From NCBI GenBank assembly GCA_905234985.1, contig CAJOJQ010000018.1, positions 1-64,000 on the forward strand: DNA of 64,000 bases, written 5' to 3'. The notes below the pieces were generated by a model, which was given only the letters and a program-made list of their open reading frames with translations, was not told where the DNA came from and searched no databases. Shown here in pieces: positions 45,450-61,821 of the stretch. The position numbers were made by a program, and so were the translations under genes. Source of the stretch: an uncultured Christensenellaceae bacterium. GTDB taxonomy: Bacteria; Bacillota; Clostridia; Christensenellales; Aristaeellaceae. How positions within the stretch are numbered: the first letter of the stretch is position 1; each line of letters starts with the position of its first letter.

Positions 45450-46907
45450 TTACTTGGCTGTCAGTTTATCCATGGATTTGCGCATCCGGTTCAGCGTTTC
45501 GTCCTTGCCCAGCAGGTAGGCGATTTCAAACGCGCCGCCGGGGGTACTTTCCTGGCCGGAAATGGCGATGCGCATGGGCCACAGCACCGCGCCGTTCTTT
45601 TTGCCCCACTCGGGGATTTTCGCCATCACCGCGTCGTGGATGTCCGCTTCCGTCCAGTCGGCAATTCCCTTCAGCACAGGCAGCAAGAGGGGCAGCACTT
45701 CCTTTGCCACGCTCTCGTCGCTCTTTTGCTTCTTGTTGAAGAAAATCGCCGTGTCGTACTCCGGCATATCGGCTAAGAAAGCGATCTTCTCCGGGATGCG
45801 GCTGAAAATGTCCGTGCGGCTCTGCATCAGCTCCGCCAAACGGCGGTAATCCATGCCCTTCCCCGCCAGCGCCTTGTCAAACCAGGGCGTAGCCAGCTCC
45901 AGGTATTTGTCAAAGTCCATTTTCGCCACGTACTGGCTGTTCATCCACTCTAACTTGGTCACGTCGAAAATGCCGGGGGATTTGTTCAGGTGCTTCACGT
46001 CGAAGGCTTCCACCAGTTCGTCCATGGTGAAGAATTCCTGATCGGTGCCGGGGTTCCAGCCCACCAGCGCTAAATAATTGACCAGCGCTTCCTTCAAAAA
46101 GCCCTTGTTGATGAAATCGCTGTAGTAGGCGTCACCGTCCCGCTTGCTCAGCTTGTGCTGGGCGTCCCGCATGACGGTGGTCAGGTGGATATACTGAGGC
46201 ACTTCCCATCCGAAAGCATTATACAGGAAGTTGTATCGGGGGGTGGAACTCAGATACTCCATGCCGCGGATCACGTGGGTGATGCCCATCAGATGATCGT
46301 CAATCACGTTGGCGAAATTGTAGGTGGGCATGCCGTCCTGCTTGATGAGGACCATATCGTCCATACAGTCGCTGTTGGGGAAGCTCATTTCGCCGAACAC
46401 CAGGTCGTTATACGTGGAAGTGCCGTCCGTTGGCGCGTTCATGCGGATCACGTAGGGCACGCCCGCGTCCAATTTGGCCTGCACTTCCTCCTTGGAAAGG
46501 TTCAGGCAGTGCTTGTCGTACTTGAACACCTCGCCCTTAGCTTCCGCCGCCGCCCGGCGCTCGTCGATCTCTTCCTTGGTGCAGAAGCAGTAATACGCCG
46601 CGCCCTTTTCCACCAGTTCCTGGGCGTAGGGCAAGTACAGGCTCTTGCGCTCACTCTGGATATAGGGGCCGAAATCGCCTCCCACGTCCGGGCCCTCGTC
46701 CCAAATGATCCCGCAGTCCCGCAGCGTATCGTAAATCACCTCGGTCGCGCCCGGAACGAACCGCTCCTGGTCGGTATCCTCGATGCGCAGGATGAATTTG
46801 CCGCCGTTCTTCTTGGCGAACAGATATGCGTACAGCGCCGTGCGCACGCCGCCCAAGTGCATGAAGCCCGTGGGCGACGGGGCAAAGCGGGTGCGAACTT
46901 GTGTCAT
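45450..46907 (-). CDS. gltX: Glutamyl-tRNA synthetase
   Basis: 485 residues, class I. The HIGH-type motif is in FAPSPTGFMHLGGVRTAL, the KMSKS-type motif in HKLSKRDGDAYY. It charges tRNA-Glu. Because glnS is also present, it may be discriminating, although Clostridia often keep GatCAB as well. ATG 46907 follows AGGAGG. The longer frame to 46979 runs into a GC-hairpin repeat. Confidence 0.96.
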   Translation of the reverse strand: MTQVRTRFAPSPTGFMHLGGVRTALYAYLFAKKNGGKFILRIEDTDQERFVPGATEVIYDTLRDCGIIWDEGPDVGGDFGPYIQSERKSLYLPYAQELVEKGAAYYCFCTKEEIDERRAAAEAKGEVFKYDKHCLNLSKEEVQAKLDAGVPYVIRMNAPTDGTSTYNDLVFGEMSFPNSDCMDDMVLIKQDGMPTYNFANVIDDHLMGITHVIRGMEYLSSTPRYNFLYNAFGWEVPQYIHLTTVMRDAQHKLSKRDGDAYYSDFINKGFLKEALVNYLALVGWNPGTDQEFFTMDELVEAFDVKHLNKSPGIFDVTKLEWMNSQYVAKMDFDKYLELATPWFDKALAGKGMDYRRLAELMQSRTDIFSRIPEKIAFLADMPEYDTAIFFNKKQKSDESVAKEVLPLLLPVLKGIADWTEADIHDAVMAKIPEWGKKNGAVLWPMRIAISGQESTPGGAFEIAYLLGKDETLNRMRKSMDKLTAK

Positions 46908-46930
46908 AGGAAAACCTCCTTTTGTTTTTT

Positions 46931-46990
46931 GCGGGGGCCAAAGAATGGTTTCCCCCGCACCCCCTTCCAAGAAAGCCATACTGGAAAGAG
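46931..46990. repeat. GC-hairpin repeat, copy 2 (GCGGGGG class)
   Basis: GCGGGGG (46931-46937) pairs with CCCCCGC (46952-46958), and CCA/TGG pairs inside. The tail GCACCCCCTTCCAAGAAAGCC matches copy 1 at 42822. It occupies the gap before gltX. Confidence 0.75.
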
Positions 46991-47002
46991 GATTATGTGT
47001 TC

Positions 47003-47524
47003 TTATACACTTGGAATATCTTCATCGTTCGGATATTCTTCGATGGACAGAATTGCGTTCCGTCCTTTCAAATGAAGATAAGTAATCCTCAAATGCTGGC
47101 CGTTTTGGGTGATTACACCACCATGATTCGCGTTGCGATGATAGTATCCCAGGCCATACGTCCAGTCATAAGTACCGTAATCAAACGTCACACCGTTCAG
47201 TATGAAAGAATCGTTGCCCCGATCCACGGTTTGCAGATTTTCCACATAACCTTCTGCCGTCTGAATCCCAACGGATTCCATTTGCTGTTTGGCCTGCGCG
47301 TAGTGACTCCACCCCAAGACCGCCATCAAGCCGCCGAAGCACACAGCCACTATGCAGATAACCACCGCGATTTTCCAATTGCCGTACGATTTTTGTTCCT
47401 TTTTTCTCCCGGAAAACCAAATCGCAAAAGCACCGATGCAAAACCAGGCGACGACGAACACGCCAGGCAGCGTATAATCCCAGAAGCCACGGACGGTGAA
47501 ATCGTAAGCGTACAGCGTTTTCAA
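47003..47524 (-). CDS. Hypothetical membrane protein, DUF3592-like
   Basis: 173 residues. Two membrane segments (PGVFVVAWFCIGAFAIWF and WKIAVVICIVAVCFGGLMAVL) flank a short basic loop. The remaining 90 residues form a probable extracytoplasmic beta domain (FILNGVTFDYGTYDW). The start is TTG 47524 with AGAGGTGAT upstream. The ATG at 47554 lies inside glnS and has no site. It lies in a row with glnS and gltX, but a link to charging is not apparent. Confidence 0.6.
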   Translation of the reverse strand: MKTLYAYDFTVRGFWDYTLPGVFVVAWFCIGAFAIWFSGRKKEQKSYGNWKIAVVICIVAVCFGGLMAVLGWSHYAQAKQQMESVGIQTAEGYVENLQTVDRGNDSFILNGVTFDYGTYDWTYGLGYYHRNANHGGVITQNGQHLRITYLHLKGRNAILSIEEYPNDEDIPSV

Positions 47525-47531
47525 GGGGAGA

Positions 47532-49223
47532 TCACCTCTGCGGCTTATACCCATCCTTCAAGCTGACAACCCGGTTATAGACGCTCTTTTCTTCCGTGGA
47601 ATCCTTGTCTTTGCAGAAGTAGCCCATGCGCAGGAACTGGAAGGTGTCCCCCACGTTGGCGGAAACCAGCGTATGCTCGCAGTAGCCGCTGACGATCTGC
47701 AAGGAATCGGGGTTCACGAATGCCGTCACGTCCTTCTTGTCCTCGGCGGCGGCGGTGTCCCATTCCTCGGTCATGAGCTGATCGTAGAGCCGGGCCTCGA
47801 AAGCGGCGCAGTCGTTTGCGTCCACCCAATGGATGGTGCCCTTCACCTTGCGGTTGGCCCCTTCGCTGCCGGAACGGGAAGAAAGGTCGATGGAACATTC
47901 GATGTGCTCGATTTCCCCCGCCTCATTCTTCACCACGTTTTCACACTTGATGATATACGCGCCCTTCAGGCGCACTTCACCGTCGGGCTTTAAGCGGAAG
48001 AACTTCTTGGGGGGCACTTCTTCAAAGTCCTCCCGTTCGATCCAGATTTCCTTGCTGATGGTCACTTCCCGCTCGCCCAGTTCGGGATGATCGGGATGGT
48101 TTTCCATGGTCAGGGTGTCCGTCCAATCGTCGGGCACGTTGGTGAACACCACCTTCACGGGGTTCAGCACCGCCATGACCCGGGGCGCGGAATCGCCCAA
48201 AGCGTCCCGCACGCAGGCGTCCAGCATCTGCACGTCCACGGTGGAATCGGCTTTCGCCAAGCCCACCTGTTCAACGAACGCCCGGATGGCGCTGCCGGGA
48301 TAACCCCTGCGGCGCATGGCGGTCAGGGTGGGCATGCGGGGATCGTCCCAGCCGGACACGAACCCTTCCTCCACCAGCCTGCGCAGGTGGCGCTTGCTCA
48401 TGACGGTGCGGGTGATGTTGAGCCGGGCGAATTCGATCTGCCGGGGTCCGAAGTAGCCCTGGCCGTCCCCCGCCCGGAAGCCCGCCTTTTCCACGAACCA
48501 GTCGTACAGGGGCCGGTGATCCTCAAATTCCAGGGAACACAGGGAGAAGGTGATGCCCTCGAAGGCGTCGGACAGGGGATGGGCGAAATCGTACATGGGA
48601 TAGATGCACCAGGTATTGCCCGTGCGCCAGTGCTCCTTATAGAGGATGCGGTACATGGCGGGGTCCCGCATGTTCATGTTGGGGCTTGCCATGTCGATCT
48701 TGGCGCGCAGGATATACCGGCCCTCCGGGAATTCCCCGGCCTTCATGCGCCGAAAGAGATCCAGGCTTTCTTCCCAGGGCCGTTCCCGCCAGGGAGAATT
48801 CTTGCCCGGCGTGGTCAGGGTGCCGCGGTATTCGCGCATTTCCTCGGCGGACAGCTCGTCCACGTAGGCCAGGCCCCGCTTGATGAAATCCTCGGCGATA
48901 TCGTACAGCCGCTGATAATAATCGCTGGCAAAGAACAGGCCGCCCGTCCAATGGAAGCCAAGCCATTCGATGTCCCGCTTGATGGCCTCGGCGTATTCGT
49001 TGTCTTCCTTGGCGGGGTTGGTATCGTCAAAGCGCAGGTTGCACAGGCCGCCGTACTTTTCCGCCGTGCCGAAGTCCGTCACCAGCGCCTTGCAGTGACC
49101 GATGTGGGGATAGCCGTTGGGTTCAGGCGGAAAACGGGTATGCACCTGCTGGGCGCGCCCTTCCCTCAAATCCTGATCTATGGCGTCCCAAATAAAATTG
49201 GTGCGTGCGTTCTCGTTCTCCAT
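47532..49223 (-). CDS. glnS: Glutaminyl-tRNA synthetase
   Basis: 563 residues, class I. PPEPNGYPHIGHCKAL holds the HIGH signature and TVMSKRHLRRL the KMSKS signature. A beta-barrel anticodon domain follows (about 345-560). Direct glutaminylation by GlnRS in a Clostridia-like host implies acquisition or retention of an enzyme many Bacillota lack. AGGAGG lies 8 nt upstream of ATG. Confidence 0.95.
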   Translation of the reverse strand: MENENARTNFIWDAIDQDLREGRAQQVHTRFPPEPNGYPHIGHCKALVTDFGTAEKYGGLCNLRFDDTNPAKEDNEYAEAIKRDIEWLGFHWTGGLFFASDYYQRLYDIAEDFIKRGLAYVDELSAEEMREYRGTLTTPGKNSPWRERPWEESLDLFRRMKAGEFPEGRYILRAKIDMASPNMNMRDPAMYRILYKEHWRTGNTWCIYPMYDFAHPLSDAFEGITFSLCSLEFEDHRPLYDWFVEKAGFRAGDGQGYFGPRQIEFARLNITRTVMSKRHLRRLVEEGFVSGWDDPRMPTLTAMRRRGYPGSAIRAFVEQVGLAKADSTVDVQMLDACVRDALGDSAPRVMAVLNPVKVVFTNVPDDWTDTLTMENHPDHPELGEREVTISKEIWIEREDFEEVPPKKFFRLKPDGEVRLKGAYIIKCENVVKNEAGEIEHIECSIDLSSRSGSEGANRKVKGTIHWVDANDCAAFEARLYDQLMTEEWDTAAAEDKKDVTAFVNPDSLQIVSGYCEHTLVSANVGDTFQFLRMGYFCKDKDSTEEKSVYNRVVSLKDGYKPQR

Positions 49224-49844: not shown

Positions 49845-52800
49845 TTATTTCTTTCCTGATTTCAGAATGTTCTTATTCTCGTACATATTTTGATCGGCGC
49901 GCTCGTACACGGCGGCTACGCAGTCGTCGTGATCGAATTTCGCCATGCCGCAGGCGATCACGATGCCGCCGCCGCGGAGGGCTTTGGCGTTATGATCGTT
50001 CACTTTGCCGATCAATTCTTCGATGCTCAAGTAGTCGCTGCCCTGGGAAACGACCGCGAACTCGTCGCCGCCCACCCGGAAGACGGGGCTGTGCTTAAAG
50101 ATGTTGCAGATGAACTTGCACGCGTCGCGCAGGTACTGGTCGCCCGCCTGGTGGCCTTCGGTATCGTTGACCTTTTTCAGATCGTTCACGTCCAGCACGA
50201 TCACGGCAAATTCCGGCTGGGTCTTTTCAGCGATATGGCGGTTGATTTTTTCCTCCGCTTCCAGGAAAGCGTGCTTGTTCTTGACGCCTGTCAGGGCGTC
50301 GATGTTAGCCAGGCTCTTGGCCTGGGCCAGACGGCGGGCGTATTCCTCCTCCTGCCGTACGGAGGAATCCACGTCGTTGATGCCCACGATCAGGCGAGCA
50401 CCTTCTTTTTCTTCAACCATGGCGGCCTTGATCTGCACATAGTTCAGTTTATCCCCCAGTTTCAGGCGATAGCTCAGGGAGAAGATGCCGCTGCGTTCGA
50501 TGGCCGAAAGCACGCCCTCCCGGGTGAACAGGGAACAGAATCTGCCCACGTCCTCCGGGCAGACGAACTGACCGCTCAAATCGCGCATCACGGTGAAAAA
50601 ATCCTCGCCCTCCTGGGGCAGGCCAAAGCCGTCATCCATCGAAGCCGCGCTGTACTGGCGGTAGCGGCCCGTTTCCGGGGCCACGATAAAGGCGCACATC
50701 AAATCGCCGGACAGGGCGTTCAGGCGGGAGTAAGCGATGCGCTCCTCCTCCATGCGTTCCGCCTCGCGCTGCTGCTTCACCTGCTCGTCCACATCGGACA
50801 CGCCGATCACGATGAACCGGTGGTCGTCCTCCATGTGGGAAACCTTCATGGTCACATAGGTGGGCTTGCCGTTCAGCAATCGGCGGTAGGTCATGATGAA
50901 GGACTTGCCGCGCTCCAGGGCGGCCAGCAGCGTATCCTTGGACATGGCCTGCACAAAGGCCGCCCGGTCATCGGCAAAGATCAATTGATCGGCGCTTTCC
51001 CTGCACTTTTCAAAGAAATCGCTGCCCCGGGATCGCTCGTTCAGCATGCCGTTTTCCGCGCCCGTGGCGTATTCGATGTATTCCTCGGTTTCAAGGTTCA
51101 CATAGAACAGATCGGTATAGCCCCGGGCCAGGGCCTGGGCAATGCGGGTATAAACCAGTCCGGCGCTGCGGGCCTTTTCGTAGGCTTCCTTAGTGGATAC
51201 GTTCTCCTTCTGCATGCGCACCTTGTCCGTGATATCCTCGCACATGCCCAGCAGGCACAGCCGCCCGGTATCGTCCATATATTTCAGCTTGGTGGTCTGG
51301 AACTGCTTCTGATTGCCCGCCGCGTCGGGCACGTCCTCAAAGAATACGTAAGGATGATCCATGGAAAGGGCCATACGGTCGTCCTCCACAAAGTGCCGGG
51401 CCGTTTCCGCGTCAAAAATCTCCGCGTCGGTCAGGCCCACCACGCCCTCCGGGTTCGCCTTATGGGCGTACTCCGCGAAGGCCTGGTTGCAGGCCAGGTA
51501 AGCCCCCGTTTCCGCGTCCTTGGAAAAGCTCATGGCGGGCATATTGTTCAGCAGCGCGGTGATGGACGCTTTCAGCTCGGCGATCTTCCGCGCCGCTTCC
51601 GCCTCCGCCTCCGCCGCTGTCAGCTTTTCCCCAAGCACACGGGTATCCTTATAGTTGTTCAGCATGATGGCCATGGAGATGACGAACAGACCCAAAGATA
51701 CAATGGTATACAGGGTGTTCGTTTTGGTGACCTGATCCGCCTGTTCCTGAAGATAGGTTTCCCGCTCCTCAACGGCGCGCTCTTCCGTATCGTGTTCGGG
51801 ATGGCTCTGGTGATATTCAAAGATGCGCTGCACAGCCGTATCGGCGGCGTTTTCCGTGGCCCTGGAAACCCACATCATGGAGGCGAACAGCATAAGCACC
51901 AGCAGGATCACCCACACGACCATGCGCTGCTGGCCGTAGCTCCGCTGCCGGTCCCGCCGGATAAGCGCCCGGAAATAAACGAGGCCCAGCACCGCCCACA
52001 CGATGAACAGCACGTAGGATTCCGTTTCCATGGCGTGGAAGGGAAGCAGGCCGGGGATCAGCAGCAGCAGCAGAAAGACGCCCATGAGTACAAGGCCCAA
52101 AATGCCGGTATACCGCTCCCGTTTGACGGCGTTATCCCTGGCGTGCTTGTAAACCGCATGGGAGATCATGCCGTAAATCAGGGTCGCGCCCAAGGTGGTC
52201 ACGTCCACGATCCAGCCGATGGCGGTGCGGCCCAAGAAGGGGATCAGCACGGAAAGCGCCACAATGGCGTAAATGGCGTTTTGGGGAATGCCGCGATCGT
52301 TGAGCTTCGCCAGGGGCTTGGGCGCTTCGCCCTCCCGGCCCGCCGCGTACAGCAGGCGGCTCACCGCCAGCATGTTGCCGATGAGGCTAGTCAAAATCAC
52401 GCCGAACAGGGCCAGCATCAGCACAGTCACGCCCGCCTGCCCCAAATAATGGTCGGCGGCGTAGAACGCGGGCACGGCTTTAACGCCTTCCAGGTTGCCC
52501 ATATCCTGAATGTAGGCGAGCCAGCTTTCGTATTCGGGAGGATAAGCGGAAACGGAGAGCAGGGAAACGAACAAATACAGCAGGGTGGTGATCACCACGG
52601 ACCAAATCAAAATCCGGCGCACCCGTTTCACCGGGAAATCGTATTCCTCGGAAAAATGGGATACGTTTTCAAACCCGATGAACGCCCAGGGCGAAATGGC
52701 GGCGATGCGCACGATCTGAGCAAAGGCGCTGGAGCCTTCGTTATACAGGGGGGAATAGCTGAACGCGCTTTCATGCCGGAAAAGGGCGATGAGGGCGCAG

Positions 52801-53351
52801 ACGGTAAAGCCTAAGGTAAACACCCCGGCGGCAGCCACCATGATGCGGTTGGGCAAACGGGAGGAGCGGGAACACAGCAGGCCGATGAGCGCCACCGCGC
52901 AGATGGAAAGCAGCGCCTCCCCGAACCACACTTCATAGCCGAAAATGCGGTAATGGAAACCGAAGTGGAAGGCGCCGCCTAAGAAAAACCGGGCGAACAG
53001 CGGCAGGGAGGTGATGTTGGCCCACAGAATCGCCAAATACGTCAGCAGCACGAACCAGGCCGCCAGAAATCCCAGATCCTTTCCCCCGACGCGCTTTTCA
53101 AAGGTGTAAATGCCGCCCGCGTCCTGCGAATTGCGGATCATATACTGCAAATTCCACGTGATCACCAAAATGACCGCCATGCCCAGTAGCATGCCGAAGG
53201 CCGTGCCCAGCACGCCGGATTTTTGCAGATACGTGTTGCAGGTGACGATGAAGGACCCCCAGCCGATGCTGGTGCCGATGGAAAAAGCCCATATGCCCAG
53301 CGGCGTAAAGCCGGGACGAAGGGCCTGCTGTTCTTTAGGATTTTGGCTCAT
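49845..53351 (-). CDS. Amino-acid permease fused to PAS domains and a GGDEF diguanylate cyclase
   Basis: 1168 residues. Residues 10-465 form a complete APC-superfamily permease with about 12 membrane segments (FTPLGIWAFSIGTSIGWGSF; ISPWAFIGFENVSHFSEEYD). A further pair of segments (about 477-496 and 547-564) encloses a polar external loop. A helix (575-600) leads into a PAS domain (about 596-710), two PAS-like domains (740-860, 885-1000) and a GGDEF domain (1010-1165). The GGDEF signature is intact at 1094-1098 (RVGGDEFAV), so it should make cyclic di-GMP. No RxxD inhibitory site precedes it. The permease may act as the sensor, transporter or both. Next to the EAL protein upstream. Confidence 0.9.
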   Translation of the reverse strand: MSQNPKEQQALRPGFTPLGIWAFSIGTSIGWGSFIVTCNTYLQKSGVLGTAFGMLLGMAVILVITWNLQYMIRNSQDAGGIYTFEKRVGGKDLGFLAAWFVLLTYLAILWANITSLPLFARFFLGGAFHFGFHYRIFGYEVWFGEALLSICAVALIGLLCSRSSRLPNRIMVAAAGVFTLGFTVCALIALFRHESAFSYSPLYNEGSSAFAQIVRIAAISPWAFIGFENVSHFSEEYDFPVKRVRRILIWSVVITTLLYLFVSLLSVSAYPPEYESWLAYIQDMGNLEGVKAVPAFYAADHYLGQAGVTVLMLALFGVILTSLIGNMLAVSRLLYAAGREGEAPKPLAKLNDRGIPQNAIYAIVALSVLIPFLGRTAIGWIVDVTTLGATLIYGMISHAVYKHARDNAVKRERYTGILGLVLMGVFLLLLLIPGLLPFHAMETESYVLFIVWAVLGLVYFRALIRRDRQRSYGQQRMVVWVILLVLMLFASMMWVSRATENAADTAVQRIFEYHQSHPEHDTEERAVEERETYLQEQADQVTKTNTLYTIVSLGLFVISMAIMLNNYKDTRVLGEKLTAAEAEAEAARKIAELKASITALLNNMPAMSFSKDAETGAYLACNQAFAEYAHKANPEGVVGLTDAEIFDAETARHFVEDDRMALSMDHPYVFFEDVPDAAGNQKQFQTTKLKYMDDTGRLCLLGMCEDITDKVRMQKENVSTKEAYEKARSAGLVYTRIAQALARGYTDLFYVNLETEEYIEYATGAENGMLNERSRGSDFFEKCRESADQLIFADDRAAFVQAMSKDTLLAALERGKSFIMTYRRLLNGKPTYVTMKVSHMEDDHRFIVIGVSDVDEQVKQQREAERMEEERIAYSRLNALSGDLMCAFIVAPETGRYRQYSAASMDDGFGLPQEGEDFFTVMRDLSGQFVCPEDVGRFCSLFTREGVLSAIERSGIFSLSYRLKLGDKLNYVQIKAAMVEEKEGARLIVGINDVDSSVRQEEEYARRLAQAKSLANIDALTGVKNKHAFLEAEEKINRHIAEKTQPEFAVIVLDVNDLKKVNDTEGHQAGDQYLRDACKFICNIFKHSPVFRVGGDEFAVVSQGSDYLSIEELIGKVNDHNAKALRGGGIVIACGMAKFDHDDCVAAVYERADQNMYENKNILKSGKK

Positions 53352-53359
53352 CGTTTCTA

Positions 53360-53368
53360 CCCCCCCCC
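53360..53368 (-). promoter_or_regulatory. G9 tract at the ribosome binding site of the permease-GGDEF gene
   Basis: Nine consecutive G on the coding strand, ending 8 nt before the ATG, provide the only Shine-Dalgarno-like sequence. Next to it is the palindrome AAAAAATTTTTT (53369-53380). Confidence 0.6.
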
Positions 53369-53431
53369 AAAAAATTTTTTGGCGTTCTCAAGAGGGATTT
53401 TTTGCGTCCATCAACGGGTGTTTTTGATCAG

Positions 53432-53556
53432 AAAGTGAAAAGTGGAGAGTGAAAAGTGGAAATCTAAATAGCCGTGATAACTGCCGTCAGACAGGCGCTG
53501 ACAATTCAAATTTTCACTTTCCACTTTTCACTTTTCACTTTTTTCGTCCTCATTCC
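53432..53556. repeat. Heptamer-arm hairpin element F (AGTGAAA class)
   Basis: The left arm (53432-53463) is AGTGAAA, AGTGGAG, AGTGAAA, AGTGGAA. The right arm (53508-53543) is made of TTTCACT and TTCCACT units. The loop is about 44 nt. A further pair of 7-mers, AATGAGG on the minus strand, lies between the right arm and the stop of the EAL gene and contains that stop (TGA). Confidence 0.85.
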
Positions 53557-56463
53557 TCATTCGCTTAACGGCTGCGTGTTCCGGATAAACAGGTTTTCAA
53601 AGTCCGCGGCATGGAGCGGGCGGGAGAAGTAATAGCCCTGCACGATGGCGCAGCCTAACTTTTTGAGCAGCTGCATTTGCGTTTCGGTTTCCACGCCCTC
53701 GGCCACCACGGGGATTTTCAGTTTGTTGGCGATGCCGATGATCAGCGACACGAGCTGCACGTCCTTTTCGTCATGCTCGATATTCTGGATAAAGGCTTTA
53801 TCCATTTTCAGCACGTCGATGGGCATGGCGGACAGCATGTTCAGGGAGGAATAGCCGGTGCCGAAATCGTCCATTTCCACCACGTAGCCCTTTTTGCGCA
53901 GCCCCTCCACCACCTGGATCACCTGCTCCGCGTTTTCGGTATAGGCGGATTCGGTCACTTCCAGCTTGAGGTCGCTGTGGTTCAGGCCGTTCAGGATCAG
54001 AATTTTGTCCAGCGTTTGTTCCAGGGCGGGGTCGAACACGTCCACCCGTGACAGGTTCACCGAAACGGGGATCGTTACGCCGTACTGCTCCTGCCAACGC
54101 ATGACCTGCCGGGCCGCCTCGCCCCACACGTATTTATCCACTTCGCTGATCTTTCCGTTCCTCTCAAACAGGGGAATGAATTCGTCCGGGGCGATCATGC
54201 CCAATTCGGGATGACGCCACCGCACCAGCGCCTCCGCGCTGACCAGCTTGGGCGGATTGACCTGAATATCGTATTTAGGCTGATAATAGACCTCAAACTC
54301 GTAGCCGTTCAGCGCCCGCTTTAAATCGTTCACCAGCCGCTGTTCGTGCATTTCGCGCTGTCGGATCTTTTCGTCAAACACGATCAGATGCTCTTTATAG
54401 TGGCCCCTGGCCATGCTGCACGCCGTGCGGGCCATATCGAACTGCTGAACGGGGTCCGTTTTTCCCTGCCACGGCATCACGCCCATGCGGAGCTGGATAT
54501 TGGCGTTGGGGGCCAATTCGTCCAGCTTTTGCTGGAGGCGGTCAAAAATGCGGGTATATTCCTCCTGGTGGCGGCAGTAGATATCGAACCGATCCGCCTC
54601 GAACCTGCCCGCGATGCCCCCTGTTTCTTTTGAAACAGCATTGATCTCTCTGCCCAGCAAACGGAGCACCTGATCGCCGAAATCCCGCCCGTTCAGGGCG
54701 TTGATGGAATGGAACTGCTCAATATTCAGCACGATGGCGTCCATGGGCGTATCCGGATGCTCGCGGAACATGCGGCCGGCGTATTGGAAGAAAAAGCCGC
54801 GGTTGTACAGGCCGGTCATTTCGTCGGTTTCCGTGGCGGAAATCAGTTTTTTGGCCTTCCGAACCGCCCGCATGTTCTGGATCAGCAAGAACAGGATCAC
54901 CAGCACCACCACGAACACAATGCTCATCACGGTGGAAAGGTTGTCCACGATCACGTCCGTGAAGGACAGCTTGGAATCCTCGGTGATGTAGTAGGTCAGG
55001 GCGGAATTGATGGCGGAATCCGGCACCAGCTCCACGGTTTTCGTCAGGATGGAAAACAGCTCCGTCTGCCCCTTGCGGATGGCGAAGCAGTAATCCATGC
55101 CCACGCCGGTGGACAGATTGGTGAGGCGGTAGCGTTCGCACTGCCGGGCAATGTTGTTGTAGCGGTAATTGCTCACCAGCACGCAGTCCGCCACGCCCTC
55201 GGCCACGGCCTTCAGGCATTCGTCGGTGTTGGCGTAATACACCTTCCGCCAGCCGGGAAAATGCTCAGCCAGGAAAGCGTCATAATTGGGATTGCCCTGA
55301 TTGACCGCCACGATCACATGATCCCGCTTGCGGAAGATGCTCTGATCCGACAGGCGCACCACCGCGTATACCTCCGAATTGACCACGGGGGGCGAAATGA
55401 CCGCGCCCAGCTGTTCCCCGTCGTAGCCGCTTAGGTTGGCCGGGAACACGCAGTCCACTTCCCCGCGCCTTAAGGCCTCCATGGCGGCGGAGGCGGTGGG
55501 ATAGCAGACGGCCTCAAAATTCAATTGTACGTTGGCGATGCAGGTGGAGGCGTATTTCAAATAATCCTTGATAGCCCCGGTCAGCTCGCCCGTTTCCTGA
55601 TCCCGGGCGCAGAAGGCCAAATAATTGTCCTGATAACCCACCCGGATGGCGCCGTGCAGGGAAAGCCAATTGACCTCGTTGTTTGTGAGGAACGCGTTGG
55701 CCCCCGACCGCCGGATAAACCGTTCGTACAGCTGCTGATTGTAGTAGCGGTTTTCCTCCTGAATGCGGCTCATGCCCATATTCAGGTCGGCCAAAAGGTC
55801 GGGGCGGGTTTTGCTCACGGCGAAATAGAAATCGGAGGAACCCACCTTGCACACCGGCACCGCCCGGGAGGGATCCACAAAGGAATCCACCGTCACGTAA
55901 GCGTCCAGCTCGCCGCTTTCCATCATTTGCAGCGATTCGTCCTCGGAGCATACCACCTCGACCAGCTCCGCCTGGATGCCGTTGGCCTGCGCCCAGTCCC
56001 GGAAGAAATCAACCTGGATGCTGCTCTTGTTCGCGCCGATCTTTTTCCCGTTCAGGGAGGAAGGGACCCCCGGCGTGATGCCTTCCTTGCCGGGCGCGAT
56101 GAACACATAGTATTCCTCCGTTCCCATGGGCAGGTCGGGGAAAAACATCAGCTCCGCCCGCTCCGGGGTGTAGGAAACGTCGCTCATCATGTCGATATCG
56201 CCCCGGATGAGCATCTGCATCAGCTCCGCCCAGCTGCCGTGTACGTACTCGTAGCTCCAGCCGGTATAGGCGGACAGCTTCAGCTGATACTCATAGGCGT
56301 AGCCTGTGCGGCGGCCGGACTGGTCCATCATGTTGTAGGAGGATTCGTACCACCCTACCCGGACCGCCTTTGTTTCCTCCGCCGCCGCCGAGACGCCTGC
56401 GAAGCAACATACCATAATCAGCGCGAGCAAAACGCACTTTAGCCGCGTTGACATTTTTTTCAT
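53557..56463 (-). CDS. Cyclic di-GMP phosphodiesterase with two periplasmic solute-binding domains and degenerate GGDEF
   Basis: 968 residues. A signal peptide/anchor ends VSAAAEE. Two SBP_bac_3 amino-acid-binding domains lie at about 30-255 and 265-485. A membrane segment (about 505-525) leads to a GGDEF domain whose signature is EADRF (622-626), so it is not a cyclase. The EAL domain has all key residues: SAEALVRW (EAL 744-746), NLS, EVTES, DDFGTGYSS, KMDK, EGVET, QGYYF. It should cleave cyclic di-GMP in response to an external ligand, probably an amino acid. The start at 56463 follows AGGAG. The permease-GGDEF gene lies 205 bp downstream. Confidence 0.92.
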   Translation of the reverse strand: MKKMSTRLKCVLLALIMVCCFAGVSAAAEETKAVRVGWYESSYNMMDQSGRRTGYAYEYQLKLSAYTGWSYEYVHGSWAELMQMLIRGDIDMMSDVSYTPERAELMFFPDLPMGTEEYYVFIAPGKEGITPGVPSSLNGKKIGANKSSIQVDFFRDWAQANGIQAELVEVVCSEDESLQMMESGELDAYVTVDSFVDPSRAVPVCKVGSSDFYFAVSKTRPDLLADLNMGMSRIQEENRYYNQQLYERFIRRSGANAFLTNNEVNWLSLHGAIRVGYQDNYLAFCARDQETGELTGAIKDYLKYASTCIANVQLNFEAVCYPTASAAMEALRRGEVDCVFPANLSGYDGEQLGAVISPPVVNSEVYAVVRLSDQSIFRKRDHVIVAVNQGNPNYDAFLAEHFPGWRKVYYANTDECLKAVAEGVADCVLVSNYRYNNIARQCERYRLTNLSTGVGMDYCFAIRKGQTELFSILTKTVELVPDSAINSALTYYITEDSKLSFTDVIVDNLSTVMSIVFVVVLVILFLLIQNMRAVRKAKKLISATETDEMTGLYNRGFFFQYAGRMFREHPDTPMDAIVLNIEQFHSINALNGRDFGDQVLRLLGREINAVSKETGGIAGRFEADRFDIYCRHQEEYTRIFDRLQQKLDELAPNANIQLRMGVMPWQGKTDPVQQFDMARTACSMARGHYKEHLIVFDEKIRQREMHEQRLVNDLKRALNGYEFEVYYQPKYDIQVNPPKLVSAEALVRWRHPELGMIAPDEFIPLFERNGKISEVDKYVWGEAARQVMRWQEQYGVTIPVSVNLSRVDVFDPALEQTLDKILILNGLNHSDLKLEVTESAYTENAEQVIQVVEGLRKKGYVVEMDDFGTGYSSLNMLSAMPIDVLKMDKAFIQNIEHDEKDVQLVSLIIGIANKLKIPVVAEGVETETQMQLLKKLGCAIVQGYYFSRPLHAADFENLFIRNTQPLSE

Positions 56464-56550
56464 ATTATGTATCACTCCTGACCGCACGGAATTCTTCCGG
56501 GCAAGGATGCTTGGAAATTATATCCTGCGTGTGTAAACCATGACGCATAC

Positions 56551-56975: not shown

Positions 56976-57914
56976 ATGAAGAAAATCATCGCTCTCCTGC
57001 TCGCCGCAATGCTTTGCCTGGGAACCTGCGCCGTGGCGGAAGAAACCTATCGCGTGGGCATTTGCCAGCTGGTGCAGCACGTGGCGCTGGACGCCGCCAC
57101 CCAGGGCTTCATGGACGCTTTGAAGGCCAAGCTCGGCGACGCCGTCACCTTCGACGTGCAGAACGCTTCCGGCGAATCCAACAACTGCACCACCATTGTG
57201 AACACCTTTGTTTCCAATAGCGTGGATCTGATCATGGCTAACGCCACTCCCGCCCTCCAGGCCGCCGTGGCCGCCACCGAAGATATTCCGATCCTGGGCA
57301 CCAGCGTGACGGACTACGCCACCGCCCTGGATATCGACAATTGGAACGGCGCGACGGGTTCCAACGTGTCCGGCACCTCTGACCTGGCTCCCCTGGAACA
57401 GCAGGCCGCCATGCTGCACGAGCTGTTCCCCGACGCCAAGAAGGTGGGCCTGCTCTACTGCTCCGCCGAACCCAACTCCAAGTATCAGGCGGACGTGATC
57501 ACCAAGTATCTCAACGATCTGGGCTATACCTGCGTTGAATTCACCTTCGCCGATTCCAACGACGTGGCTTCCGTGGCCCAGAACGCCTGCGACGGCTGCG
57601 ACGTGATCTATATCCCCACCGACAACACCGCCGCTTCCTGCACCGAAGCCATCCGCAACGTGGTGGAACCCGCGAAAAAGCCCGTCATTGCCGGTGAAGA
57701 GGGCCTGTGCGCCGGGTGCGGCGTGGCGACCCTGTCCATCAGCTACTACGATTTGGGCTACGCCACCGGCGAAATGGCCTACGAAGTGCTGGTGAACAAA
57801 GCGGACATCGCCACCATGGCCGTGCGCTTCGCCCCCAACGTGACCAAGGAATACAACGCCGAGCTGTGCGAGCTGCTGGGCATTGAGATTCCCGAGGATT
57901 ACGTAGCCATTTAA
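56976..57914 (+). CDS. ABC transporter substrate-binding protein, TrpX/ABC_sub_bind family (system 1)
   Basis: 312 residues. The signal peptide ends CAVAEETYR. The binding fold opens VGICQLVQHVALDAATQGFMDAL, typical of TrpX-like proteins (family PF04392), some of which bind tryptophan or other aromatic amino acids. The rest (NASGESNNC; DVIYIPTDNTAA; ISYYDLGYATGEMA) matches. First gene of a three-gene importer. Leader features suggest control by an aromatic amino acid. Confidence 0.9.
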   Translation: MKKIIALLLAAMLCLGTCAVAEETYRVGICQLVQHVALDAATQGFMDALKAKLGDAVTFDVQNASGESNNCTTIVNTFVSNSVDLIMANATPALQAAVAATEDIPILGTSVTDYATALDIDNWNGATGSNVSGTSDLAPLEQQAAMLHELFPDAKKVGLLYCSAEPNSKYQADVITKYLNDLGYTCVEFTFADSNDVASVAQNACDGCDVIYIPTDNTAASCTEAIRNVVEPAKKPVIAGEEGLCAGCGVATLSISYYDLGYATGEMAYEVLVNKADIATMAVRFAPNVTKEYNAELCELLGIEIPEDYVAI

Positions 57915-57922
57915 GGGACAAT

Positions 57923-58037
57923 GAGAGTTGAGAGTTCAGAGTTGAGAGTTGAGATGAAATAGTGAATAAGACATTCGGGCTTACCGTCTGTTTCTCAAAT
58001 ATTGATCTCAACTCCCAACTCTCAACTCTAAACTCTC
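57923..58037. repeat. Heptamer-arm hairpin element D (AGAGTTG class)
   Basis: The left arm (57923-57955) has four units (AGAGTTG with one AGAGTTC). The right arm (58004-58037) has CTCAACT, CCCAACT, CTCAACT and CTAAACT. The loop is about 48 nt. It lies 8 nt after the binding-protein stop, between two genes of one operon. Confidence 0.9.
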
Positions 58038-58121
58038 CTGATTCAACGTTTCCAGTGTATCTGGATGAAAAGAAAGGGGTGCGCACCGTCCGCCCCTTCC
58101 GGTTTTGTTTGGAGGTTTTTT

Positions 58122-59048
58122 ATGAACCTGACCGCTCTTTTTAACGCAATGCCCGGCGCTATCGCCCAGGGGCTGATTTGGGGCGTCATGGCTATCGGCG
58201 TGTACATCACCTATAAGGTGCTGGACCTGGCTGACCTGACCGTGGACGGCAGCATGGCGACCGGCGGCGCGGTGTGCGTGATGCTCATGCTGAACGGCGT
58301 GAACGTGTGGATCGCCCTGCTGTGCGCCATCGTTGCGGGCATGCTGGCGGGCCTGCTGACCGGCGTGTTTCACACCGCCATGGGCATCCCGCCCATCCTG
58401 GCCGGTATTCTGACCCAGCTGTCTCTGTATTCCATCAACCTTGCCATTATGGGCTTCAAGGCCAACCAGGGCATCAACGTGTCCAAGTACGATTTGATCG
58501 TGAGCCAGCGCAACGTGCGGCTGGCGGATCTGAGCAACCCCATTTTCGTCGCGGTGCTGTTCCTGGCGGCTGTCATCGGCATCCTGTACTGGTTCTTCGG
58601 CACGGAGTCAGGCAGCTCCCTGCGGGCCACCGGCGCCAATGAGGCCATGTCCCGCGCCCAGGGCATCAACACAAAAAAGGCGAAAATCCTTGGCCTCATG
58701 ATCTCCAACGGCATCGTGGCCCTCTCCTCCGCCATGTTGGCCCACTATCAGGGCTTCGTGGACGTGAATATGGGGCGCGGAGCCATCGTGATCGGCCTGG
58801 CCGCCGTGATCATCAGCGAGGTGATTTTCGGCAAGCTGTTCGTCAATTTTGCTTTGAAGCTCACCGGGGTGGCCCTCGGCGCGGTGATTTACTACATCGT
58901 GATTCAAATCGTGCTGTGGCTTGGGCTGAACACCAATCTCCTCAAGCTGCTCTCCGCGCTGATCGTGGCCGTATTCCTGGCCATCCCGTACTGGAAGGCC
59001 GCCGTCGCCGCCAGGAACGCCGGAAAGAGAGGGCAGGAGCATGCTTGA
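58122..59048 (+). CDS. ABC transporter permease, TrpY-like (system 1)
   Basis: 308 residues with about nine membrane segments. LADLTVDGSMATGGAV and LRATGANEAMSRAQGIN are hallmark blocks of this permease group, related to LivH/RbsC. ATG 58122 follows GGAGG. It overlaps the ATPase start by 8 bp. Confidence 0.9.
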   Translation: MNLTALFNAMPGAIAQGLIWGVMAIGVYITYKVLDLADLTVDGSMATGGAVCVMLMLNGVNVWIALLCAIVAGMLAGLLTGVFHTAMGIPPILAGILTQLSLYSINLAIMGFKANQGINVSKYDLIVSQRNVRLADLSNPIFVAVLFLAAVIGILYWFFGTESGSSLRATGANEAMSRAQGINTKKAKILGLMISNGIVALSSAMLAHYQGFVDVNMGRGAIVIGLAAVIISEVIFGKLFVNFALKLTGVALGAVIYYIVIQIVLWLGLNTNLLKLLSALIVAVFLAIPYWKAAVAARNAGKRGQEHA

Positions 59049-59835
59049 TTTAAAGAACGTCCGGAAAACCTTCAACACCAAAACCATTGATGAAAAAATT
59101 GCCCTGGACGGGGTGAATCTGCACATTGACGACGGCGATTTCGTCACCGTGATCGGCGGCAACGGCGCGGGAAAATCCACCATGCTCAACGCCATCGCGG
59201 GGGTGTGGACGCTGGATACCGGCAGCATCGTGATCGACGGGACCGATATAACCCACCTGCCCGAATACCGCAGGGCCGCTTTCTTGGGCCGGGTTTTCCA
59301 GGATCCCCGGTTCGGTACGGCCGCCACCATGCAAATCGAGGAAAATCTTGCCCTGGCCGCCCGCCGGGGCGAAAAGCGCACCTTGAAACCCGGCATCACC
59401 CGGGAAGAAAGAAACGCCTACCGGGAAAAGCTGGCCATCTTGGGGCTGGGCCTGGAAAACCGGATGACAGCGAAGGTGGGCCTTTTGTCCGGCGGCCAAA
59501 GACAGGCTTTGACGCTGCTCATGGCGACGCTGAAAAAGCCGAAGCTGCTGCTCCTGGACGAGCATACCGCCGCTCTGGATCCCCGGACCGCCGCCAAGGT
59601 GCTGGAAATTACGGAAAAGATCGTGACGGAAAACAAGCTGATGACCCTCATGGTCACGCATAACATGCGGGACGCCATTCGCTTCGGCAACCGCCTGATT
59701 ATGATGAACGGCGGAAAAATCATCCTGGATATTGCCGGGGAAGAAAAAAAGCGCCTGACCATCGAAATGCTCATGGACGCTTTCGCCAAAACCAGCGGCG
59801 AAGAATTCGCCAACGACCGCATTTTGCTTTCCTGA
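59041..59835 (+). CDS. ABC transporter ATPase, TrpZ-like (system 1)
   Basis: 264 residues. Walker A GGNGAGKST, signature LLSGGQRQALTLLM, Walker B LLLLDEHTAALDP. The EHTAALDP form is typical of this transporter group. It forms the motor of system 1. Confidence 0.92.
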   Translation: MLDLKNVRKTFNTKTIDEKIALDGVNLHIDDGDFVTVIGGNGAGKSTMLNAIAGVWTLDTGSIVIDGTDITHLPEYRRAAFLGRVFQDPRFGTAATMQIEENLALAARRGEKRTLKPGITREERNAYREKLAILGLGLENRMTAKVGLLSGGQRQALTLLMATLKKPKLLLLDEHTAALDPRTAAKVLEITEKIVTENKLMTLMVTHNMRDAIRFGNRLIMMNGGKIILDIAGEEKKRLTIEMLMDAFAKTSGEEFANDRILLS

Positions 59836-59845
59836 ATGTCCCGAT

Positions 59846-59902
59846 GGATAAAACGAACCCGCGATCTGACATTACGTCGAATCGTGGGTTCGTTCTTTAT
59901 CC
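59846..59902. terminator. Long hairpin after ABC operon 1
   Basis: GGATAAA-ACGAACCC-GCGAT (59846-59865) pairs with ATCGT-GGGTTCGT-TTTATCC (59881-59902) with a 2-nt bulge. The right arm is T-rich. Probably the operon terminator, 11 bp after the stop. Confidence 0.65.
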
Positions 59903-59948
59903 CGTATTTGTTCGAGGATGGCTTATCAACGTTGTCAGGGAGAGGACT

Positions 59949-60055
59949 GTAGGGGCGGATAATATCCGCCCGCGATTGCCGGATGTCACGAACGCCGGAA
60001 AAAAACAGCAAACGCATCATGCTGCGCGAGACGGGCGGATATTATCCGCCCCTAC
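59949..60055. repeat. 107-bp element bounded by perfect 24-bp inverted repeats
   Basis: 59949-59972 and 60032-60055 are exact reverse complements over 24 bp. Each arm is itself a hairpin (GGCGGAT / ATCCGCC with a 3-nt loop). The 59-bp centre has no ORF. It resembles a miniature inverted-repeat element. It lies exactly where two convergent operons meet. Confidence 0.85.
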
Positions 60056-60105
60056 GGTTCCTGCGCTTCGCGGTTTTGTTCTTACCAGCAGAACCGGAAG
60101 AAACA

Positions 60106-60909
60106 TTACCCGTTTTTTTGCAGCAGCATGCGGTCGTTGTCCAGGGCCTTGTGGCGGCTGTCGGAATAGAGGCGCAGCAAGTCGTCCACGGTGGTGTGCG
60201 CCCGTTCCTCGCCGGAGAAATCGAACAGAATTTGTCCCGCGTCCATCATGATGGTGCGGCTGCCGATGGCAAGGGCCTGGGCCATGTTGTGGGTGATCAT
60301 GAGGGTGGTCAGGTGATGCTGCTTCACCGTGCGCTGGGTGATTTCCATCACCTTATCGGCGGTGGCGGGGTCCAGGGCGGCGGTGTGTTCGTCCAGCAAA
60401 AGGAGCTTGGGCGGCACGATGGTACACATGAGCAGGGTGACGGCCTGGCGCTGGCCGCCGGACAGCATGCCCACCTTGGTTTTCATCCGGTCCTCCAGAT
60501 TCATGCCGAACTCAGCGATCTTTTCCCGGAATAGGGCCACCTGCTTGCGGGAAGGGGCGAAGCTCAGGGGCTTTGCGGTGGCCCGGGAGTAGGCAAGACT
60601 CAAATTTTCCTCAATGGTCATGTGGGGCGCGGTGCCCTTCATGGGGTCCTGAAATACCCGGCCAATGTTCAGCGCTCTTTTGTGTTCTTTCAAAAAGGTA
60701 ATATCCCGCTTATCCAGGAGAATGCGGCCCTCGTTCAGCAGGAAGGTGCCGCAGATGGCGTTGAACAGGGTGGATTTGCCCGCGCCGTTGGAGCCGATGA
60801 TGGTGACGAATTCCCCGGGGTCCAGGTGCAGGTTTACATGATTCAGGGCGGTATGCTCGATGGGCGTGCCCTTTTCAAAGACCTTTACAGCGTTCTGAAT
60901 ATCAAGCAT
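60106..60909 (-). CDS. ABC transporter ATPase, TrpZ-like (system 2)
   Basis: 267 residues. Walker A GSNGAGKST, signature MLSGGQRQAVTLLM, Walker B LLLLDEHTAALDP. It is a clear paralogue of the system 1 ATPase, most similar around the signature and Walker B. It overlaps the permease gene by 8 bp, as in system 1. Confidence 0.92.
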   Translation of the reverse strand: MLDIQNAVKVFEKGTPIEHTALNHVNLHLDPGEFVTIIGSNGAGKSTLFNAICGTFLLNEGRILLDKRDITFLKEHKRALNIGRVFQDPMKGTAPHMTIEENLSLAYSRATAKPLSFAPSRKQVALFREKIAEFGMNLEDRMKTKVGMLSGGQRQAVTLLMCTIVPPKLLLLDEHTAALDPATADKVMEITQRTVKQHHLTTLMITHNMAQALAIGSRTIMMDAGQILFDFSGEERAHTTVDDLLRLYSDSRHKALDNDRMLLQKNG

Positions 60910-61795
60910 GGGCTTTCCCTCCCTGCTTCTGCCGGGCTTCCTTCAGGTTCTGCCGTAGCGCCGGAATCGCCAAGGCCAGCGCCACGATCACCGCCGATAC
61001 CAGCTTCAGCATATACGCGGGCAGGGGGCTGTAACGGGTCGCCAGGGCGATGATATAGCGGTATACCAGAGAACCCACGATAGCGGAAATGAAGCCCAGG
61101 GTCACGCTACGCTTGCCGAAAATGGCTTCCCCGATGATCACGGAGGCCAGACCCACCACCAGAATACCGGTGCTGGAAGAAACGTCGGCGTAGCCCTGAT
61201 ACTGGGCGATCAGCGCGCCGGACAGGGCCACCAGGGCGTTGGAAACGGAGAAGGACAGGATCTTGCAGGCGTTCACGTTGATGGAGGAGGCCCGCACCAT
61301 GTCCTCGTTGTCGCCCACGGCCCGGATGCACATGCCAATATGGGTGTGGAAAAACAGAATGATCAGCGCCAGGAACAGCAGCGCCATCACGATGGGCAGC
61401 ACGGTCATGGCGTCGTTTTTGCTAAGAAATGGGATGAGCTTGAACAGCGTGACCGCCCGCACCAGCGACAAATTGGGCGCTCCGCCCAGCACCGCCAAAT
61501 TGATGGAATACAGCCCGCTCATGGTGATGATGCCGGACAAAATGGGATGAATGCGGAAGCGGGTCTGCAAAAGCCCCGTCACGCTTCCCGCCAGCGCCCC
61601 TGCCGCCATAGCGGCGAAAATCGCCAGCACCGGATGCCCGGCGGCGGTCACAGCGGCAGAAACGGACAGACCGAAGGCAAAGCTGCCTTCGGTGGTCAGG
61701 TCCGGTATGGACAGGATGCGGAAGCTGATATAAATTCCCAGCGCTAAGACGCCGTACAGCAGACCCAATTGCAGGGAACCGATCAACAATTTCAT
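60902..61795 (-). CDS. ABC transporter permease, TrpY-like (system 2)
   Basis: 297 residues with about nine membrane segments. IPDLTTEGSFAFGLSV and IRAVGDNEDMVRASSIN correspond to the two hallmark blocks in system 1. 26 bp separate it from the binding-protein gene. Confidence 0.9.
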   Translation of the reverse strand: MKLLIGSLQLGLLYGVLALGIYISFRILSIPDLTTEGSFAFGLSVSAAVTAAGHPVLAIFAAMAAGALAGSVTGLLQTRFRIHPILSGIITMSGLYSINLAVLGGAPNLSLVRAVTLFKLIPFLSKNDAMTVLPIVMALLFLALIILFFHTHIGMCIRAVGDNEDMVRASSINVNACKILSFSVSNALVALSGALIAQYQGYADVSSSTGILVVGLASVIIGEAIFGKRSVTLGFISAIVGSLVYRYIIALATRYSPLPAYMLKLVSAVIVALALAIPALRQNLKEARQKQGGKAHA

Positions 61796-61821
61796 AGGCG
61801 CTCACCCCTCGGAATGTCTTT

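Follow-up and report, generated by a model that had tools for sequence, protein, structure and literature searches.

The gene described here lies in a 64,000-nucleotide stretch of contig CAJOJQ010000018.1 from an uncultured Christensenellaceae bacterium (GCA_905234985.1; the whole stretch is referred to as the window) and fuses an APC-type amino-acid permease to a GGDEF diguanylate cyclase domain. Relatives of the protein carry the same permease on several different signalling outputs, and the permease probably acts as the sensor of the signalling protein. The layout of the gene is as follows, where TM denotes a transmembrane helix and AF2 an AlphaFold2 prediction.

49845..53351, minus strand: whole fusion gene; ATG start, 1168 amino acids, stop codon inside the coordinates, orthologues in other genomes
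51960..53321, minus strand: APC (AA_permease_2) permease, residues 11-464, TM1-TM12; Pfam E 2.1e-28, sensor model matched by Foldseek to AdiC, LATs and GkApcT
51660..51923, minus strand: TM13, acidic outside helical hairpin and TM14 (the TM pair), residues 477-564, proposed dimeric transducer; hydropathy and charge, AF2 helices 476-516 and 524-602, kept across the family alignment
51546..51659, minus strand: unbroken cytoplasmic signalling helix, residues 565-602; AF2 (predicted), fixed TM14-to-PAS spacing
51219..51551, minus strand: PAS_4 domain, residues 601-711; Pfam E 1.6e-8
50766..51188, minus strand: PAS-like unit 2, residues 722-862; AF2 secondary structure, no Pfam match
50352..50756, minus strand: PAS-like unit 3, residues 866-1000; AF2 secondary structure, no Pfam match
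49857..50336, minus strand: GGDEF diguanylate cyclase domain, residues 1006-1165, GGDEF intact at 1094-1098; Pfam E 2.1e-22, motif and conservation

An earlier note on this DNA had described one uninterrupted frame of 1168 codons encoding a complete 12-helix permease, an extra membrane pair with an outside loop, three PAS-type domains and an intact GGDEF motif. The frame is borne out by its ATG start and full-length orthologues, and the other elements by Pfam, hydropathy, AF2, charge pattern and motif checks, with one qualification: the first PAS-type domain is a Pfam match, while for units 2 and 3 the PAS-like character comes from predicted secondary structure alone. The AA_permease_2 (PF13520) match spans residues 18-454 and model positions 4-422 of 427 (99.8 bits against a cut-off of 27). 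It is followed by PAS_4 at 601-711 (1.6e-8) and GGDEF at 1015-1161 (2.1e-22), each of the three exceeding its curated cut-off. Hydropathy and AF2 helices together give 12 core TMs followed by TM13 (477-495) and TM14 (546-564); the hydropathy scan alone yields 15 windows, with some helices caught by two overlapping windows, so that the count leans also on the AF2 helices. The 50-residue loop between TM13 and TM14 (496-545) is acidic (12 D/E, 5 K/R), and the positive-inside charge pattern fits a predicted topology with this loop outside and the cyclase inside.

The AF2 model of the sensor alone (predicted local distance difference test, pLDDT, 85.6; predicted template modelling score, pTM, 0.84) has Foldseek matches to AdiC, y+LAT1, GkApcT, BasC and ApcT. 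Predicted helix breaks at 29-30 and 225-226 are as in the LeuT fold with its broken TM1 and TM6. After the permease, AF2 places helices 476-516 and 524-602 as a protruding hairpin, followed by three mixed alpha/beta units before GGDEF; the second of these helices is predicted to run unbroken for 79 residues, re-crossing the membrane into the first PAS. Pfam gives no SSF (SLC5/SSS) match in the fusion protein at E up to 1, AA_permease families being the only ones seen, and no Amt match. The TM13-TM14/linker region also has no Pfam match, in a library that may lack a STAC model. In the GGDEF domain, the metal- and GTP-binding residues, which we take from PleD to be D1054, N1062-D1063, D1071 and GGDEF 1094-1098, are all present, and the presumed RxxD I-site position, likewise placed from PleD, reads FKHS. 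The domain is predicted to synthesise cyclic di-GMP.

A chimeric assembly or a pseudogene is hardly credible as an explanation for this architecture. The source genome is a draft of 97 contigs, which would leave room for such an error; however, identical architecture is found in other assemblies, and the ratio of non-synonymous to synonymous substitution rates (dN/dS) against three orthologues is 0.10-0.16 for the permease and 0.13-0.19 for GGDEF. Every segment stays below 0.4, the highest value (0.37) belonging to the third PAS-like unit. Purifying selection acts on permease and cyclase alike. The first five full-length orthologues listed, from separate assemblies, are 92, 85, 71, 72 and 70% identical to the window protein. 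These exclude the frameshift or misassembly at the permease/PAS junction that the earlier note had named as what would refute its reading and, with the low dN/dS, rule out an assembly artefact.

The host genome contains four AA_permease_2 matches, three of which lie in long signalling frames. Besides the window gene these are L038, a permease-TM pair-GGDEF-REC-GGDEF-EAL protein, and the paralogue L039, which is permease-TM pair-HisKA-HATPase-REC-REC. A pattern-seeded scan of species genomes, which detects close relatives only and was limited to 80 loci, found 76, all in uncultured or metagenome-assembled genomes and many from ruminant gut; the host is probably a ruminant-gut bacterium. Profile searches gave a match in 76/300 genomes of the same family (E<=1e-90), 11/396 of the order (1e-60) and 7/398 of the phylum (1e-90), and a search with the window sensor alone matched 14/60 relatives (1e-40). 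These counts each include the window's own genome and unfused matches, with 3-4 candidates per genome scored in the family, order and phylum searches. Four of the five distant long-frame members from the phylum search were read by Pfam, and all four are a permease followed by HATPase_c (one under the cut-off). In these distant permease-kinases the profile match ends before the TM pair; other order and phylum matches are of unfused length. Two distant permease-kinases adjoin a gene for a CheB-type methylesterase (L153:8422-9519 and L155:5477-6601).

Spread by plasmid or phage was considered and set aside. In each of the two collections a single distant match turned up that covers just the permease portion (24.8% and 25.6% identity over query residues 20-470 and 20-471); the matching proteins may or may not be fusions. 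Six loci from genomes labelled Chloroflexi, Sutterella, Atopobiaceae or Coriobacteriaceae (L111, L113, L116, L118, L125, L127) have sensors 60-72% identical to the window's, while the glutamyl-tRNA synthetase (GluRS) of those genomes is 37-41% identical; for comparison, GluRS identity is 53% for L070 and L091 and 96% for L065. This reflects either transfer between phyla or misbinned contigs. Two Atopobiaceae loci (L133, L136) show no such contrast, with sensors at 42% and GluRS at 39-40% identity.

Permease-bearing frames were classified with phmmer, each seed being a single sequence cut from the window protein, the neighbouring protein or the paralogues, and 113 frames were reduced to 107 by dropping identical sequences. 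The TM pair followed by an output is present in 83 of the 107: a histidine kinase in 31 (25 after PAS, 6 direct), GGDEF in 38 (22 after PAS, 16 direct), GGDEF plus EAL in the form GGDEF(-REC-GGDEF)-EAL in 12, and EAL as the only output seen in two. A further seven have the TM pair with no output seen, several being cut by contig ends or frame breaks. Where no TM pair was detected, the frames carry GGDEF (3), a histidine kinase (2) or no output (12, unfused permeases and fragments). For nine members scanned with Pfam, and for L109, the seeds and Pfam give the same catalytic outputs; Pfam adds a GGDEF missed by the seeds in L113, and the seeds see PAS units in L043 that Pfam does not. Of 53 distinct permease-GGDEF frames, all but one truncated frame keep the GGDEF motif intact (52/53). 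Among the 83 TM-pair fusions, 36 reach their first catalytic domain without a PAS ahead of it, as in the 744-residue L047 type. PAS is therefore not the general input of the family, and was rejected as its general sensor.

A quick tree of 70 permease domains explains unfused versus fused forms by one change (support 83, not starred), with several unfused rows on long branches. In a careful tree of 63 fused permeases, 60 of them labelled, output type requires 11 changes, against a minimum of 2 and a shuffled mean of 26.3, although the bootstrap had not fully settled. Starred branches alone call for at least six changes for GGDEF, at least five for GGDEF plus EAL and at least two for histidine kinases. 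The approximately unbiased (AU) test rejected the 23 kinase forms as one clade against the 37 others (p-AU 3.7e-5), with the reservation that it presumes a group named beforehand, whereas the kinase grouping was picked after the quick tree had been seen. Since the tree needs 11 changes and the kinase clade is rejected, the output has been swapped repeatedly under a conserved permease. Repeated exchange on one conserved sensor is what would be expected if the permease is the input module, and this is the strongest evidence here for that role.

Spacing below the membrane is constant into PAS and into histidine kinases. The distance from the TM14 landmark F556 to the PAS landmark is 44 residues in 44/44 rows with the motif, of 49 in total, and the other five are the same by eye. 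From F556 to the histidine kinase SHExRTP motif it is 38 residues in 6/6 rows. For GGDEF, measured to the DxLTG landmark over 28 rows, the distance is 28 residues in 7 rows, 31 in 3, 35 in 16 and 45 in 2. All four GGDEF lengths equal 0 or 3 modulo 7, which would fit helical register, but this is suggestive only.

Conservation of the ligand site was read from a MAFFT alignment of 57 sensors. Out of 85 sensors that have the whole permease and the TM pair, 58 were picked at <80% mutual identity and one was dropped for a stop codon; the alignment also holds six far permease-kinases, six unfused permeases (two being near-copies from one genome) and GkApcT. Invariant in 57/57 sensors are G30-W31-G32 in TM1, W222, A223, G226, E228, H232 and E236 in TM6, Y259 in TM7 and R332 in TM8, and the motifs GWG (TM1) and WAFIGFE (TM6) are conserved among the sensors. 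GkApcT has ligand-binding or gate residues at several matching places, namely Thr43, Gly44, Phe231, Ala232, Asp237, Thr241-Arg327 and Tyr268 (PMC5803215). N326, present in 48/57 sensors, aligns with GkApcT Met321, which sets side-chain selectivity (PMC5803215). H232 recurs in 4/6 far kinases; in all six unfused relatives the position holds N or Q. Its GkApcT counterpart is Thr241, a residue that interacts with Arg327 on the cytoplasmic side (PMC5803215).

Two residues of GkApcT have no counterpart. The TM5 Lys191 equivalent is found in 0/57 sensors (V/T/I/L/A instead), 0/6 unfused relatives and 0/6 far permease-kinases, in an alignment whose TM5 register is possibly one residue off. The TM3 Glu115 equivalent is found in 0/57 (T/I/V/A/S instead), 0/6 and 0/6, respectively. 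Both residues are needed for coupled transport in GkApcT, where the Lys191Ala variant binds but does not transport (PMC5803215). As judged from the alignment, their absence speaks against a simple proton-coupled transporter, and the family may transport by another route. It decides nothing between a receptor and a transceptor, because the six unfused relatives also lack them; for the same reason the loss of the TM5 lysine was rejected as a mark of receptor-only function.

We favour, with somewhat more confidence than doubt, a receptor-type diguanylate cyclase in which a ligand-gated APC-fold permease is the sensor of a dimeric enzyme. An amino-acid-like ligand would sit in the usual APC binding site, flanked by the broken TM1 and TM6, with transport either kept or lost. 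Binding would shift TM1/TM6b gating and act on the added TM13-outside hairpin-TM14 pair. In a dimer, the two TM13/TM14 pairs could pack into a four-helix transducer of the sort found in ordinary two-TM receptors. The uninterrupted helix 565-602 would then relay the signal to the PAS units, altering the pairing of two GGDEF domains and raising or lowering cyclic di-GMP synthesis. Points in favour of this reading are the exchange of outputs, the invariant sensor residues with H232 among them, the 36 fusions that have no PAS ahead of the catalytic part, the spacings below TM14, the intact GGDEF motifs, the purifying selection on both halves, and the occurrence of a similar PAS-PAS-PAS-GGDEF half on other sensor types in genes next to relatives. 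In the paralogues the same sensor would drive histidine kinases and GGDEF/EAL enzymes, and in the window the cyclase is paired with an EAL protein, described below, that carries a solute-binding domain and would oppose it. The earlier note had proposed that transport or ligand occupancy in the permease could directly set cyclic di-GMP synthesis. The part of this that stands is the permease as input module, given one permease and TM pair on several exchanged outputs and ligand-site elements invariant in 57/57; the direct effect on synthesis remains a prediction. A wider reading is more tentative and falls a little short of an even chance: in gut Clostridia the APC fold would be a general plug-in receptor, probably non-transporting, with its own TM-hairpin transducer, freely exchanged among cyclases, phosphodiesterases and kinases, and would constitute an SLC7-type-fold receptor class.

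Other arrangements can be set against this. The protein could be an import transceptor, in which the permease transports a substrate that then binds cytoplasmic PAS, as proposed for CbrA and histidine. One PAS and two PAS-like units are available for this in the window protein, and the CbrA PAS may bind histidine (PMC7096432; PMC13022988). Import followed by PAS sensing would explain the window protein but not the whole family, as some members have no PAS before the enzyme, and the missing Lys191/Glu115 equivalents also count against import, with the unfused relatives again limiting that point; overall this route seems unlikely. Less likely still is a fusion without coupling, in which transporter and cyclase share a chain and a membrane but work independently. 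This has a precedent in CbrA, where transport is unaffected by removal of the kinase domain and the kinase works without the SLC5 part (PMC7096432). It is at odds with the exchange of several outputs on one sensor, the constant linker lengths and the fusion of three of the four AA_permease_2 matches of the genome. The reverse direction, with cyclic di-GMP or PAS ligands gating the permease so that the cytoplasmic part regulates transport, is compatible with any tight coupling. It is nevertheless very improbable, as the outputs look like complete enzymes (GGDEF motif in 52/53; HisKA, HATPase, REC) rather than binding domains, and several different enzymes would each need to regulate one permease.

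Several points weigh against the ligand-gated receptor, in addition to the reservation attached to the AU test. Fusion alone is no proof of coupling, because the CbrA kinase can work without its transporter domain. The whole-chain AF2 model (46-row alignment; mean pLDDT 81.4) has a pTM of 0.54, so relative domain placement in it is unreliable, while single domains are credible. The modulo-7 pattern is weak, with four distinct lengths and a probability of ~8% by chance on our own estimate, and the outside hairpin is poorly conserved in the family alignment. The TM pair was undetected in the distant permease-kinases L058, L059 and L153-L155, and is therefore neither essential to permease signalling generally nor the only coupling route. 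As regards a cyclic di-GMP target, PilZ was not found in the genome, where the control search rang in 5/14 genomes, and neither was flagellin (control 4/14). A search for the c-di-GMP-I riboswitch had no match in the genome, but its control matched nowhere either, making it uninformative.

The fusion would belong among transporter-derived receptors, of which SLC5-STAC kinases, Amt kinases and S-component-fold receptors are already known. CbrA, an SLC5-STAC sensor histidine kinase, both binds and transports histidine (PMC13022988; PMC7918813). CbrA, MxtR and CrbS are like the window protein in placing a LeuT-fold transporter domain N-terminal to the signalling part, with PAS in CbrA and MxtR. 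They differ in combining SLC5 (SSS) with a STAC linker, where the window protein has APC (AA_permease_2) and a TM hairpin. CrbS is reportedly also counted among the SLC5-STAC sensor kinases. The accounts of these proteins drawn on here describe kinase outputs only, whereas the window family exchanges GGDEF, EAL and histidine kinase; the window protein itself ends in GGDEF, unlike the histidine kinase output of SLC5-STAC kinases, and it is the paralogue L039 that carries HisKA-HATPase-REC-REC. Amt domains fused to GGDEF have reportedly been mentioned in reviews. In Ks-Amt5, a transporter fold is re-used as a receptor on a signalling enzyme and transport is lost (PMC5764959), but it differs from the window protein in its Amt family, trimeric state and histidine kinase output. 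The earlier note's impression that a complete permease on a cyclase is unusual has to be qualified, as transporter-kinase fusions are known (CbrA, CrbS, Ks-Amt5) and only one of the four AA_permease_2 matches in this genome is outside a fusion. No description of an APC permease fused to GGDEF turned up in searches confined to an open-access library.

Structurally, the nearest comparison is to GkApcT, AdiC, BasC and the LATs, which share the fold of the window sensor (Foldseek to AdiC E 2.3e-12, template modelling score 0.81 by target length). In the sensor, the glycines of TM1 and the aromatic and acidic residues of TM6 match those of GkApcT in kind, but identity is about 14-19% in the Foldseek alignments, the GkApcT TM5 lysine and TM3 glutamate are absent, and a TM pair and output have been added. 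The yeast amino-acid permease Ssy1 serves as a receptor, as does Gap1; both are eukaryotic and, unlike the window protein, neither is known to carry an enzyme in the same chain. Gap1 as such a receptor appears among the references of the work that covers the 5TMR/S-component-fold receptors, where a transporter-like fold has interchangeable GGDEF, EAL, PAS and histidine kinase outputs (PMC11109136). Those receptors have the S-component fold of ECF transporters, whereas the window sensor is a LeuT-fold permease.

The family has a bearing on a wider question. For CbrA, whose sensor structure is solved, it is described as an open question whether signalling is driven at all by what the transporter part binds or transports (PMC13022988). 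The window family already presents one permease sensor with different natural outputs, among them PAS-less cyclases of ~745 residues, and so makes the binding-versus-transport question testable through cyclic di-GMP levels. The family further hints at how a GGDEF-rich gut bacterium, with 47 GGDEF domain matches in its genome, may read amino-acid supply.

A second cyclic di-GMP gene lies 205 base pairs (bp) from the fusion gene:

53557..56487, minus strand: upstream gene, 976 amino acids; SBP_bac_3 (two stretches), TM, degenerate GGDEF (RFEADRF), EAL motif intact

From its domains, the product is probably a phosphodiesterase that reads an outside small molecule and opposes the cyclase. The two nearest orthologues (L040/L065 and L041/L066) likewise have an SBP3-EAL gene upstream, and L085 and L099 have one downstream; no such gene is seen in the available flank of several other PAS-GGDEF members. 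Neighbours were counted for 82 distinct family frames as same-strand genes of >=200 residues within 400 bp, given enough flank, as raw rates without a random-gene baseline. A GGDEF/EAL gene lies upstream in 18/28 histidine kinase, 8/29 GGDEF and 1/8 EAL forms, and downstream in 3/26, 8/34 and 4/11, respectively. All 18 genes upstream of kinase forms encode PAS-PAS-PAS-GGDEF, like the cytoplasmic half of the window protein. Six of these have an SBP3 N-terminus, and the four SBP3-less proteins inspected have an N-terminus with about six or seven hydrophobic segments. The PAS-PAS-PAS-GGDEF half is thus joined to multi-TM or SBP_bac_3 sensors in genes adjoining the relatives.

Just 5' of the fusion start codon, outside the frame, is a nine-G run (53352-53370) that may be a slippage tract or an assembly-sensitive spot. 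Further into the gap that separates the two cyclic di-GMP genes there is an inverted repeat (53432-53541) whose arms are runs of AAAAGTG-like heptamers. Similar plus/minus heptamer pairs, mostly about 50-100 bp apart, occur on many contigs of the genome, and the repeat is probably a small dispersed element. Reversing the pattern as a control gave matches at about the same rate, which tells nothing because the motif is nearly the same when reversed. Two class I (E and Q) tRNA synthetase genes, of GluRS and GlnRS type by domains, are downstream of the fusion gene at 45450-49223. At 56976-62802 there are two ABC operons of one type (ABC_sub_bind, BPD_transp_2, ABC_tran) in opposite orientations.

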